Positions 7,960 to 57,050 of a DNA stretch of 64,000 nucleotides are shown here, in pieces. The notes beneath the pieces are model-generated. The model made no database searches. It saw only the letters and a list, made by a program, of their open reading frames with translations, and was not told the DNA's origin. Positions within the stretch are counted from its first letter, which is position 1. Each line of letters begins with the position of its first letter. The DNA comes from Brochothrix thermosphacta DSM 20171 = FSL F6-1036 (GTDB taxonomy: Bacteria; Bacillota; Bacilli; Lactobacillales; Listeriaceae), in the NCBI RefSeq assembly GCF_036884295.1, contig NZ_CP145608.1, positions 1,116,001-1,180,000 on the forward strand, written 5' to 3'. The translations under genes and the position numbers were made by a program.

Positions 7960-7989
7960 CAAAATATATCATGATGAAACAATTATGAA

Positions 7990-8165
7990 TCTTATCAAGA
8001 GTGGTTGAGGGACTGGCCCTATGAAACCCAGCAGCCTACACTAAGGTGTAAGGTGCTAACCTGTGGCAAGATACAAAGGTATCTTGAGCGATAAGAGAAA
8101 AAAGGTATAGCTATAAGTATGCTATTAGGACCTTTTCTCTTTTTAGTGAGAAAAGGTTTTTTAAT
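7990..8165 (+). ncRNA. SAM-I (S-box) riboswitch with terminator, controlling metK
   Basis: The aptamer runs from CTTATCAAGAGTGG to GCGATAAGAG and contains the conserved GAGGGA, GAAACCC, AGCAGCC and GGTGCTAA elements. The P1 strands pair. Downstream, ACCTTTTCTC and GAGAAAAGG form a terminator ending in six T (8131-8162); the segment AGAGAAAAAAGGT just after P1 can pair with its left arm as an antiterminator. High S-adenosylmethionine should therefore switch metK off. Confidence 0.96.
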
Positions 8166-19960: not shown

Positions 19961-19974
19961 AAGGAGTATAGAAT

Positions 19975-20226
19975 AAAAACGATGATAGGAACTAGTAGCA
20001 AGGCTGTGTTGTTGAGAGAGTTAGCGGGTGGTGCGAGCTAATCAACACGAATTGTGAACTCATCCTTAAGTGCTCCAGTGAAAAGAGTAGTTGGAGACGT
20101 GCATTTCGCGTTAAGAAATTGAAGTGGATACACTATATTTTGGTGTGTTAATGCCGGGTGGTACCGCGGGAAGCAAATTCTCGTCCCGAAAAGTCGATTG
20201 ATGGCTTTTTGGGGCGTTTTTTTATG
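19975..20226 (+). ncRNA. T-box leader controlling leuS
   Basis: Contains the hallmark GGGTGGTACCGCGGG (20156-20170) that pairs with the uncharged tRNA acceptor end. A specifier region follows with CTC, a leucine codon, in GAACTCATCC, and the terminator CGTCCCGAAAAG/CTTTTTGGGGCG ends in seven T (20181-20223). Uncharged leucine tRNA should favour the antiterminator and raise leuS expression. Confidence 0.95.
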
Positions 20227-35048: not shown

Positions 35049-35543
35049 ATGTATAAATATTTAATTTTAGCAGCAGGACTAATTGGAATTGATCAATGGA
35101 CTAAAGCGTTAATCGTTAAAAATTTAAGCATTGGTGACCAAATAGAAGTCATTTCGAATTTTTTGTACATCACATCTATTCGTAATCGTGGTGCAGCCTG
35201 GGGTATTTTAGAAGATCATATGAGTATATTTTATGCGGTAACAGCTGTCGTAATTATAGCGGTTGTCTACGCCTTTTATAAATATAAATCAGAGCATTTC
35301 ACTCTACATCTCAGTTTGTCGTTAGTTTTGGCAGGTGCATTAGGTAATTTTATCGACCGTATGCGTTATCAAGAGGTTGTCGATTTTGTACAAACAGTAT
35401 GGGGCAATTACTATTTCCCGATTTTTAATGTCGCGGATATGTGCTTGTCGATTGGTGTTGTAATACTGATGTTTTATGTTTTGTTTGGTGATAAGTTAAA
35501 CGAGAAGAAACGCAAGAAGAAAGGAAAATACTACTTTGAATAA
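35049..35543 (+). CDS. lspA: Signal peptidase II (prolipoprotein signal peptidase)
   Basis: Membrane aspartyl protease that cleaves lipoprotein signal peptides after lipid attachment. 164 residues, four helices, active-site Asp103 (GNFIDRM) and Asp130 (NVADM), and the NRGAAWGI motif. ATG 35049 is chosen by alignment with the family start; the open frame extends 51 bp upstream. It overlaps rluD by 8 bp, the standard lspA-rluD pair. Confidence 0.97.
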   Translation: MYKYLILAAGLIGIDQWTKALIVKNLSIGDQIEVISNFLYITSIRNRGAAWGILEDHMSIFYAVTAVVIIAVVYAFYKYKSEHFTLHLSLSLVLAGALGNFIDRMRYQEVVDFVQTVWGNYYFPIFNVADMCLSIGVVILMFYVLFGDKLNEKKRKKKGKYYFE

Positions 35544-36468
35544 TAAATTAATAACAGTCACAGAAGAGGTTGTAGATCAACGTCTTGATAAGGCTTTAAG
35601 TACACTTGACCCTGAGGTAAGTCGTACACAAGCAGTAACAATGGTCAAAGAAGGTGCAATCACTGTGAATGATCAAGTGAAAAAACCGAAGTATAAAGTA
35701 CAATTAGGCGATGTAATATCTTATAGCGTTAAAGAACCTGAAGTATTATCAATTGAAGCGGAAGACATTCCATTGGACGTTATTTATGAAGATGAAGATG
35801 TTATCGTTGTAAATAAACCACAAGGAATGGTTGTTCATCCTTCAGCTGGTCATACATCAGGGACATTAGTTAACGCTTTGATGTATCATTGTAAAGATTT
35901 ATCAAGCATTAATGGCGTTGTTCGTCCAGGTATCGTTCATCGTATTGATAAAGATACATCTGGATTATTGATGGTTGCCAAAAATGATAAAGCGCATTTG
36001 GCATTAGCACAGGAATTAAAAGAACATAAAGCTGATCGTTATTACATTTCATTAGTACATGGTGAAATTACACATTCCAAAGGTACAATTGATGCACCAG
36101 TAGGTCGTTCAAAAACAGACCGTCAAAAAATGGCAGTCGTAGATCATGGTAAACCAGCTGTCTCTCATTTTGAAGTGTTAGAACATTTCCCAGCGTTTAC
36201 GTTAGTCGAATGTCAATTAGAAACAGGCAGAACACATCAAATCCGTGTACACTTCCGTTATATTGAACATCCATTAGCAGGTGACCCGAAATATGGTCCG
36301 AAGAAAACATTAGCAGGTGAAGGTCAGTACTTACATGCTAAAACTTTAGCATTTACGCATCCTCGTACGGGTGAGAAAATGACGTTTGAAGCGCCGTTAC
36401 CACAAAACTTCACGGATATGATTGAAACATTACGTAAAAGTCGTATCGTTAAACTTGAAAAAAATTAA
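35536..36468 (+). CDS. rluD: 23S rRNA pseudouridine synthase, RluA/RluD family
   Basis: 310 residues: S4 domain (RLDKALSTLDPEVSRTQA), then the catalytic domain with HRIDKDTSG, catalytic Asp138, and the RTHQIRVHF motif. The enzyme makes pseudouridines in 23S rRNA. TTG start within the end of lspA. Three tandem structured repeats begin immediately after its stop codon. Confidence 0.95.
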   Translation: MNNKLITVTEEVVDQRLDKALSTLDPEVSRTQAVTMVKEGAITVNDQVKKPKYKVQLGDVISYSVKEPEVLSIEAEDIPLDVIYEDEDVIVVNKPQGMVVHPSAGHTSGTLVNALMYHCKDLSSINGVVRPGIVHRIDKDTSGLLMVAKNDKAHLALAQELKEHKADRYYISLVHGEITHSKGTIDAPVGRSKTDRQKMAVVDHGKPAVSHFEVLEHFPAFTLVECQLETGRTHQIRVHFRYIEHPLAGDPKYGPKKTLAGEGQYLHAKTLAFTHPRTGEKMTFEAPLPQNFTDMIETLRKSRIVKLEKN

Positions 36469-36806
36469 TAAAAGCGACTTCAACATCTAAAACCGAATGA
36501 AATTGGAGAAAAAATACTTTTGACGTATTTAAGTCAGGGGTATTTTTTTGAAATTTATAAAGGTTTTGTTGGATAGAAGCTAGAGAGATAAAAGCGACTG
36601 TCCACGTTCAGAAATGAACAAACTGGAAAGAAATTCTTCTTTGATGTTTTTTATCAAAGGGGAATTTTTTGAAGTTTTGGTTTTTTTTGTGGTTAGAAGC
36701 TAGAAAAATAAAAGCGACTGGCCGCGTTCAGAAATGAACAAATGAGAGAGAGTTTCATCTTTTTGAGTATATTTATCGTACGTTTGTTAAAAAGATAGAT
36801 TTTCTC
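36469..36806 (+). repeat. Three tandem copies of a 120-bp structured repeat
   Basis: Units start at 36469, 36588 and 36708 with ATAAAAGCGAC and have an exact 120-bp period. Units 1 and 2 end in TAGAAGCTAGA; unit 3 is cut by the pyr promoter. Units 2 and 3 contain GTTCA-GAAA-TGAAC hairpins. Units 1 and 2 each hold a 16-bp stem (with G-T pairs) ending in six or seven T. In unit 1 AATACTTTTGAC pairs with GTCAGGGGTATT; in unit 2 ATTCTTCTTTGAT pairs with ATCAAAGGGGAAT. Sequence changes between units keep the pairing. They probably act as terminators for rluD. Confidence 0.75.
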
Positions 36807-36835
36807 TTGACGTTTTCACATAAATACGATATATT
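36807..36835 (+). promoter_or_regulatory. Sigma-A promoter of the pyr operon
   Basis: TTGACG and TATATT with a 17-bp spacer. The first PyrR-binding loop begins 28 bp downstream. Confidence 0.8.
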
Positions 36836-36861
36836 ATAAATAACTTAAATAACCTTTAAAT

Positions 36862-37563
<702 letters not shown>

Positions 37564-45200: not shown

Positions 45201-45446
45201 AACATCACCGTTAAAGAAGTTAACAAAATTGGTGAAGACGGCGAAACATTGATAGACTGGATCCGCGGAGGTAAAGTACAAGCCGTAATTAACACATTAA
45301 CACGCGGTAAAGAACCACAACGTGATGGTTTCCAAATCCGTCGTGAATCAGTTGAAAATGGTGTGCCAATCTTTACATCATTCGACACAGCAAGCGCAAT
45401 CCTACAAGTTATGGAATCACGCTCATTCTCAGTCGCTGAAATGTAA
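42270..45446 (+). CDS. carB: Carbamoyl-phosphate synthase large subunit
   Basis: 1058 residues (pyrAB) in two homologous ATP-grasp halves (starting [20 protein letters not shown] and [19 protein letters not shown]) and a C-terminal MGS-like allosteric domain ([14 protein letters not shown]). Makes carbamoyl phosphate from bicarbonate, ammonia and two ATP. ATG 42270 is preferred to ATG 42264 because the AAAGGGGGA site is too close to the latter. Structured repeats follow its stop codon inside the operon. Confidence 0.97.
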
Positions 45447-45605
45447 TAAAAGTGATAAACACCGTTCAGCACCAAACAAATTGGAGAAAAGAGACAAAGG
45501 CGTTTGATGCCTGCGGCGCTTTATGAAATTTGAAAGGTGTTGGTGTTTAGAACTAGAGAAAAAATAAAAGTGATAAACACCGTTCAACAGAAATGAAATA
45601 GTGAT
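45447..45605 (+). repeat. Stop-codon-linked repeat inside the pyr operon (one full, one partial copy)
   Basis: Starts at the carB stop with ATAAAAGTGAT. The outer arms TAAACACC and GGTGTTTA pair across about 90 bp, and CCGTTCAGCACC and AACTAGAGA match the rluD and leuS copies. A second, partial copy begins at 45565, 118 bp later. Unlike the rluD copies, the inner hairpin has no T run, so transcription can pass on to pyrK. Confidence 0.65.
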
Positions 45606-56925: not shown

Positions 56926-57008
56926 GTGATACTCACAAAAGGTGACGCTAAAATAATGGTCCATCATTTGAATAAAAGAGCGATACTGCTTTAGTACTAA
57001 TATATTGA

Positions 57009-57050
57009 AGAATAACATTTTGACGTTGCCGTCAGGATGTTATTTTTTTT
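57009..57050 (+). terminator. Terminator after the transporter
   Basis: AATAACATTTTGAC/GTCAGGATGTTATT stem with G-T pairs, followed by eight T. Downstream, to 57332, a short open stretch (INELKQFFDEDMRDETVYNQ) without a start is the only other feature. Confidence 0.85.

Follow-up and report, generated by a model that had tools for sequence, protein, structure and literature searches.

Results

The repeat array downstream of rluD

The window analysed here is a stretch of 64,000 nucleotides of Brochothrix thermosphacta DNA, in which three repeat units start at positions 36469, 36589 and 36709, with a period of exactly 120 nt, directly 3′ of the stop codon of an rluD-like gene (Table 1). This gene has one ortholog per genome in all 36 Listeriaceae genomes analysed. 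The third unit runs into a promoter-like TTGACG-17-TATATT site located just upstream of a PyrR leader. Promoter-like sites number 3 across the whole stretch, against 1.9 expected in the consensus scan, and the one at the end of the array probably serves the pyr genes.

Table 1. Features of the window that are referred to in the text.
Feature	Position	Strand	Evidence and remarks
SAM riboswitch (RF00162)	7989-8097		
T-box leader (RF00230)	19973-20191		
rluD-like gene	35536..36468	+	310-aa ORF from the ORF list; stop codon TAA abuts the array; name rluD from the initial annotation
Unit 1, full copy	36469..36588	+	Fold z -6.06; R1 match 92.1 bits; hairpin 36473-36581; P4 36508-36524 with 36533-36549
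Unit 2, full copy	36589..36708	+	Fold z -4.88; R1 match 99.9 bits; hairpin 36593-36701; P4 36628-36646 with 36652-36670
Unit 3, incomplete copy	36709..36808	+	5′ half and inner hairpin 36744-36808, without outer 3′ arm/stem; R1 match 49.7 bits
Promoter-like site (TTGACG, 17 nt, TATATT)	36807..36835	+	Overlaps the end of unit 3; consensus scan 10/12
PyrR binding-site leader (RF00515)	36849..36977	+	cmscan, 64.1 bits
Single full copy	45443..45565	+	R1 match 102.3 bits; preceded by the stop codon of a 1060-aa ORF
Partial second 5′ arm (TAAAAGTGATAAACACCGTTCA...)	45569..45595	+	20/20 bases equal to the 5′ arm of the full copy at 45443..45565
Weak, degenerate candidate copy	56995..57047	+	nhmmer E 0.0087; absent among R1 matches

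The initial annotation had described the units as exact 120-bp repeats with covarying hairpins that begin at a stop codon. The period is indeed exact, as seen from AAAAGCGACT at 36470, 36590 and 36710, and TAAAAGCGACT is present in all three units, but the sequences are not identical: over 120 bases, the ungapped identity is 68 between units 1 and 2, 72 between units 2 and 3 and 54 between units 1 and 3. As many as 68 matches at a shift of 120 bases are reached by 0.24% of 20000 random window positions. Since the identity between units is only 54-72/120, Tandem Repeats Finder does not list the array. When each unit is folded, the z values are -6.1, -4.9 and -3.7 for units 1 to 3, and these folds, together with the genome-wide matches described below, indicate that the fixed-period units are real. 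In the predicted folds, the inner stem (P4) comprises 17 pairs in unit 1 and 19 pairs in unit 2, G-U pairs among them, so that the stems are paired as had been noted but are longer than the 16 bp first given, and unit 3 keeps a hairpin and lacks the outer 3′ arm. The GTTCA-GAAA-TGAAC stem-loop reported in two of the units is present as sequence at both sites (GTTCAGAAATGAAC at 36606-36619 and 36726-36739), but only the lowest-energy fold of unit 3 contains it; that of unit 2 draws its bases into the long hairpin. It does not represent a conserved fold, and its bases correspond to a conserved 5′-side bulge plus one strand of helix P2 (see below).

A family of copies in the genome and across Bacilli

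After an initial DNA search, a covariance model (R1) was built from 14 units of the B. thermosphacta genome. In this genome of 2.56 Mb, the model gives 63 matches at E<=1e-3 and 78 when the cut-off is relaxed to E<=1, and thus the scan proposed in the initial annotation does yield many further copies. Besides the array, the window holds another full copy at 45443, whose TAAAAG begins 3 nt past the first base of the stop codon of the upstream gene, which we take to be carB. The copies are dispersed, non-coding and numerous, as is characteristic of a MITE-like interspersed hairpin repeat. A simple local tandem repeat was also considered as an explanation of the array and is ruled out by the dispersal of copies and their occurrence across genera.

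R1 matches at E<=1e-3 were found in 19 of the 36 Listeriaceae genomes, that of B. thermosphacta included. The only congener in the sample has 72 of them, all nine genomes of a sister genus (g3) have 3-13 each, and 8 of the 25 genomes of another genus (g2) have 1-2 weak ones each (best E 2.5e-4 to 9e-4). The Listeria sRNA LhrC (RF00616) occurs in 34 of the 36 Listeriaceae genomes and in none of 14 controls, being missing from B. thermosphacta and its congener. This distribution marks the family as most likely Listeriaceae and the genus without LhrC as Brochothrix; a staphylococcal origin, a first guess based on gene order, was dropped. A second model (R2), made from 67 units of three genera, was applied at E<=1e-6 to wider samples, in which it matched 58 of 395 genomes at the level of the order and 48 of 398 at that of the class, together around 15 families of Bacilli. 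In the phylum sample, the only matches were in 4 of 398 genomes, all of them Bacilli, with none outside this class. The genomes of g2 are absent from the 58 positive genomes of the order sample, which provides a negative control from close relatives.

Forty stretches from other families (20 from each of two samples) were examined. They are mostly best-scoring matches and hence not a random sample. These stretches contain 39 and 30 units, which have in common the landmarks AAAAGC, a purine loop, a CGTTYA bulge, CTRGA and, mostly, GGA/GA, and they also carry tandem arrays with a unit of about 120-130 nt. In other Bacilli, L284, L291, L293, L298 and L301 make up a subgroup whose inner stem is longer, which brings the total to about 155 nt, and which carries GATAAAGGAANCACG and GACTTATCG.

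No Rfam 15 family matched over the units of the window at the gathering score, and in the lists at E-values of 0.1-1 there was none over 36300-37000, over 6 B. thermosphacta loci or over the 14 and 16 of the 40 other-family stretches that were scanned; the best Rfam signals at element loci were sub-threshold miRNA models only, with E near 0.1. Searches of the main text of openly accessible papers yielded no recognisable description of the hairpin family, also when sequence fragments were used. Likewise, phages and plasmids gave no blastn match and viral contigs no exact pattern match to the element; because few units were used as queries, these last negatives say little.

A conserved fold, probably selected on the transcript strand

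Each unit is predicted to form one hairpin of about 110 nt. From the base upward, it consists of a short basal helix (AGY/RCT), a purine internal loop and a locus-specific helix P1, followed by the 5′-side bulge (CGTTYA) beside a G-U pair, helix P2, an internal loop, helix P3, the GGA/GA loop and the long helix P4. The covarying nature of the hairpins, anticipated from the array, is upheld across the family: covariation amounts to 0.446 in B. thermosphacta (63 distinct rows), 0.527 in the congener (47 rows), 0.718 in the order (39 rows) and 0.726 in the class (30 rows), compared with 0.17-0.22 for shuffles and at most 0.151 for slid partners. As the alignments (A2-A7) were fitted to the model and are biased toward its structure, units were also folded one by one, with z below -2 in 186 of 198 units and at least 5 outer-stem pairs in 188 of 198. 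In B. thermosphacta the GGAGA/GA loop resembled a kink-turn when set against the kink-turn consensus; the relatives have a GGA/GA loop that lacks the second GA, and a kink-turn is not claimed.

The transcript strand is more stable than its complement in 189 of 198 units, with a mean gap of 6-10 kcal/mol, in agreement with the suggestion of the initial annotation that the structure is one of RNA rather than DNA. G-T cells are retained at 0.57-0.75 of the shuffled mean and A-C cells at 0.16-0.42 (counted in the first 36 rows of A2 and in 28 rows of A4, from which weak g2 and duplicate loci had been dropped). The pair at the junction of P1 and the bulge is G-U in 38/39 and 30/30 rows outside Listeriaceae, in 33/47 rows of the congener and in 38/56 B. 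thermosphacta rows that have letters there. Finally, conservation is higher in unpaired than in paired columns (mean top frequency 0.70-0.78 versus 0.62-0.70). Taken together, the fold, strand, G-T, G-U and loop data argue for selection on the transcript strand, as RNA or at least as single-stranded nucleic acid, and we have little doubt that both the dispersed family and its RNA-level structure are genuine.

These same data bear on whether the element is purely the relic of a selfish DNA transposon (MITE), whose hairpin would be terminal inverted repeats only and whose position at stop codons would be the remnant left by selection against insertions into genes and promoters. The dispersed and lineage-specific occurrence of the copies agrees with such an origin, as do a nested insertion (L082, see below) and an AT-rich 5′ end able to restore a stop codon. 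However, inverted repeats alone predict neither the strand-specific stability nor the retention of G-T over A-C, and they account neither for the near-invariant G-U pair outside Listeriaceae nor for internal loops that are more conserved than the stems. For these reasons, and for the asymmetry at stop codons presented next, we regard this explanation as rather unlikely.

Position relative to stop codons

That unit 1 begins at the base immediately following the rluD TAA reflects a general tendency of the family. When matches of at least 29.5 bits were grouped into 40 clusters in B. thermosphacta, an ORF of at least 100 aa on the same strand ended within 400 nt upstream in 35 of them. Of these 35 clusters, 12 have the 5′ motif beginning on the stop codon itself, 8 have it 3 nt further on, 6 at a distance of 4-9 nt and 3 at 35-47 nt, the motif pattern not being found in the other 6. 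Over five sets of genomes, 56 of 138 clusters (21/40, 15/40, 4/18, 8/20 and 8/20 by set) have a sense stop no more than 10 nt from the 5′ end of the element, while only 1 of 138 has a convergent stop as near to the 3′ end. A selfish relic with inverted ends does not predict this 56-to-1 asymmetry.

The remaining 82 of 138 clusters have no detected sense stop at their 5′ end, and this counts against the reading that we favour below. Many of the non-abutting clusters of the congener are located in larger composite repeats, and in some of those of B. thermosphacta the gap is filled by a truncated unit that was not counted as a match. Truncated first units of about 45 nt, ending near TTGGA and fused to the next unit, occur at L101, L102, L104, L108 and L081 of B. 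thermosphacta, and they look as if deleted between an inner TTGGAGA and the terminal CTRGAGA.

Gain and loss of copies

The orthologs of 16 element-bearing genes were inspected in the congener. Ten end at the same residue and five within 1-6 residues, and one (L099) was not comparable. A same-place element is clear in one ortholog and degenerate in another; in the others none was seen by eye. The orthologs are therefore mostly devoid of the element and yet end alike, which indicates that copies have been gained or lost at the stop codon without truncation of the gene. Positions common to both genomes are few, BLAST of 41 x 40 loci giving 8 long matches. In the congener, L311, the locus behind the ortholog of the L069 gene, has a short tandem CGAATTAA run right after the stop, where B. 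thermosphacta has an element array.

The congener ortholog of rluD itself is 88% identical and ends at the same residue, after which an ordinary terminator stands in place of the array. This raises the explanation of a family of intrinsic terminators, in which the inner A-rich/T-rich stem would end transcription of the upstream gene and would have replaced the ancestral terminator. T-runs after the inner stem in B. thermosphacta and, by eye, terminator-like hairpins just past the stop in several other orthologs speak in the same sense. Yet a terminator scan of 36300-37000 calls the pyr attenuator only and none in the three units, in other Bacilli the inner stem of many relatives is not followed by a T-run even though the outer helices and loops are retained, and many congener copies sit in composites that adjoin separate terminators; moreover, a terminator needs neither the P1 helix nor a conserved bulge. 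The description of the stems as terminator-like is thus not supported as a function of the family, and we hold this explanation to be improbable.

At L082 of B. thermosphacta, a copy is nested in another repeat, the uninterrupted form of which lies just upstream. This single insertion would suggest a target-site duplication of around 2 bp; no fixed duplication emerged for the family, which is a point against the interpretation given below. A second repeat family, with the inverted ends CAGATTGAATAGAAACGCT...AGCATTTCTATTCAATCTG, was observed at L082 and L078 of B. thermosphacta and at L198, L204, L219, L220, L222, L226, L227 and L228 of the congener, where there are also composites, a few hundred bp long, in which the hairpin element is nested. 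They adjoin intrinsic terminators, with a copy of the terminator hairpin on either side at L220 and L222.

Considering gain, loss and nesting, the element is very probably mobile. The search for a mover covered Y1 transposase and reverse transcriptase families. The Y1 (RAYT) transposase PF01797 has 0 matches in the B. thermosphacta genome and is present in 5 of 36 Listeriaceae genomes, and no reverse transcriptase was found in the B. thermosphacta genome; that neither candidate mover occurs in it speaks against the interpretation favoured below.

Tandem arrays and the trailing 5′ arm

The units of one array agree in the bases ahead of AAAAG and in the 5′ arm of P1, although the inner body may differ, as in the four units of L202, and the array boundaries share locus-specific bases. 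Behind the last unit, 52 of 131 clusters carry a partial 5′ arm (at least 14/20 bases): 11/33 in B. thermosphacta, 1/18 in g3 and 24/40, 7/20 and 9/20 in the other sets, with 5-30% in swapped controls. A rule that every array closes with an extra 5′ arm was considered and fails on these counts. The shared 5′ arm and the trailing partial arm fit tandem gain at an existing copy.

The trailing arm could also be part of a ribosome-sensing switch, in which a ribosome at the stop codon would cover the 5′ arm of P1 and the 3′ arm would then pair with the second 5′ arm downstream, altering what becomes of the 3′ end of the mRNA. Such a switch would agree with a 5′ arm that starts at the stop codon, as well as with second arms such as that behind the copy at 45443. 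The arrangement is not general, however, as the g3 and B. thermosphacta counts illustrate; second arms arise from tandem duplication alone, and swapped controls yield them too. We consider this switch highly improbable.

Discussion

Our preferred interpretation, which we think reasonably likely, is that the family is a mobile RNA hairpin resident at mRNA 3′ ends, and that the rluD array consists of two full copies and one incomplete copy. The element would be transcribed along with the gene in front of it and then fold as one long hairpin. Copies would spread by means of an enzyme supplied in trans, and they would land, or be tolerated, at the stop codon in one orientation. The coding sequence would be kept on insertion because the first bases of the element, usually AAAAG, can restore a stop after the T of the target. 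The hairpin might then act as a 3′ barrier for the upstream mRNA, protecting it from 3′ exonucleases and perhaps lowering read-through, in which case many copies would be near neutral and some useful. We put forward this barrier function tentatively; a precedent may be found in bcr3 of Bacillus cereus, reported to correlate with longer mRNA half-life (PMC3446304).

A more far-reaching version is that of a Bacilli-wide mobile RNA that is inserted or maintained in connection with translation termination, the ribosome deciding how it pairs in copies that have a second 5′ arm. We judge it quite unlikely. If it were true, the stop codon would be the landing site of a mobile element whose 5′ strand is recognised or selected as RNA, and ribosome occupancy of the stop codon would pick the arm that pairs with the 3′ arm and thereby set the fate of the mRNA 3′ end.

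How does this family compare with known repeats? The ERIC elements, or intergenic repeat units, of enterobacteria are described as MITE-like, 127 bp long and probably transcribed, with an influence on neighbouring mRNA; they are similar in length to the element studied here, form one long imperfect hairpin and are dispersed in intergenic DNA (PMC2267715). They belong to another phylum, and the comparison is one of descriptions and not of sequences. In contrast to ERIC, the hairpin family commonly occurs as arrays, conserves its internal loops and adjoins sense stops with its 5′ end, in one orientation. Closer in taxonomy, bcr1 and other bcr repeats of the B. cereus group, also in class Bacilli, are given as conserved hairpin repeats of about 150 bp with mobile features that are part of transcripts (PMC3446304, PMC6542083), 84/165 and 62/155 copies being in transcripts in two B. 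cereus strains (PMC3446304). According to PMC6542083, bcr1 is confined to the B. cereus group and associated with a TTTAT motif; no fixed motif of this type was seen at our element, again a comparison by description only. Efa-1 of Enterococcus faecalis, with 163 bp and 65 copies, is likewise a structured intergenic repeat of a lactic-acid bacterium, differing in its double hairpin from the single long one found here, as far as its description in PMC2267715 allows comparison. Either Efa-1 or bcr1 may be related to the hairpin family, and Efa-1 perhaps belongs to it.

The REP/REPIN sequences associated with RAYT (Y1) are dispersed extragenic hairpins too, but the unit described here is much longer and the B. 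thermosphacta genome has no Y1 transposase. BOX elements of Streptococcus pneumoniae have a modular make-up. They are intergenic hairpin repeats from a relative within Bacilli, and the likeness is again one of description only. What appears new relative to known repeats is that the family extends so widely over Bacilli, that its internal loops and a G-U pair are conserved and that it abuts stop codons in one orientation, the separation from bcr1 and Efa-1 being drawn from their descriptions.

A hairpin family copied dozens of times in some genomes is thus without an Rfam 15 model in the loci scanned, and the covariance model lets annotators detect it. Its occurrence 3′ of apparent housekeeping genes offers a testable case of mobile DNA shaping mRNA 3′ ends, and its orientation and stop-codon position call for a mechanism beyond ordinary MITE models. 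Elsewhere in the window, the T-box leader and the SAM riboswitch are ordinary regulatory RNAs.
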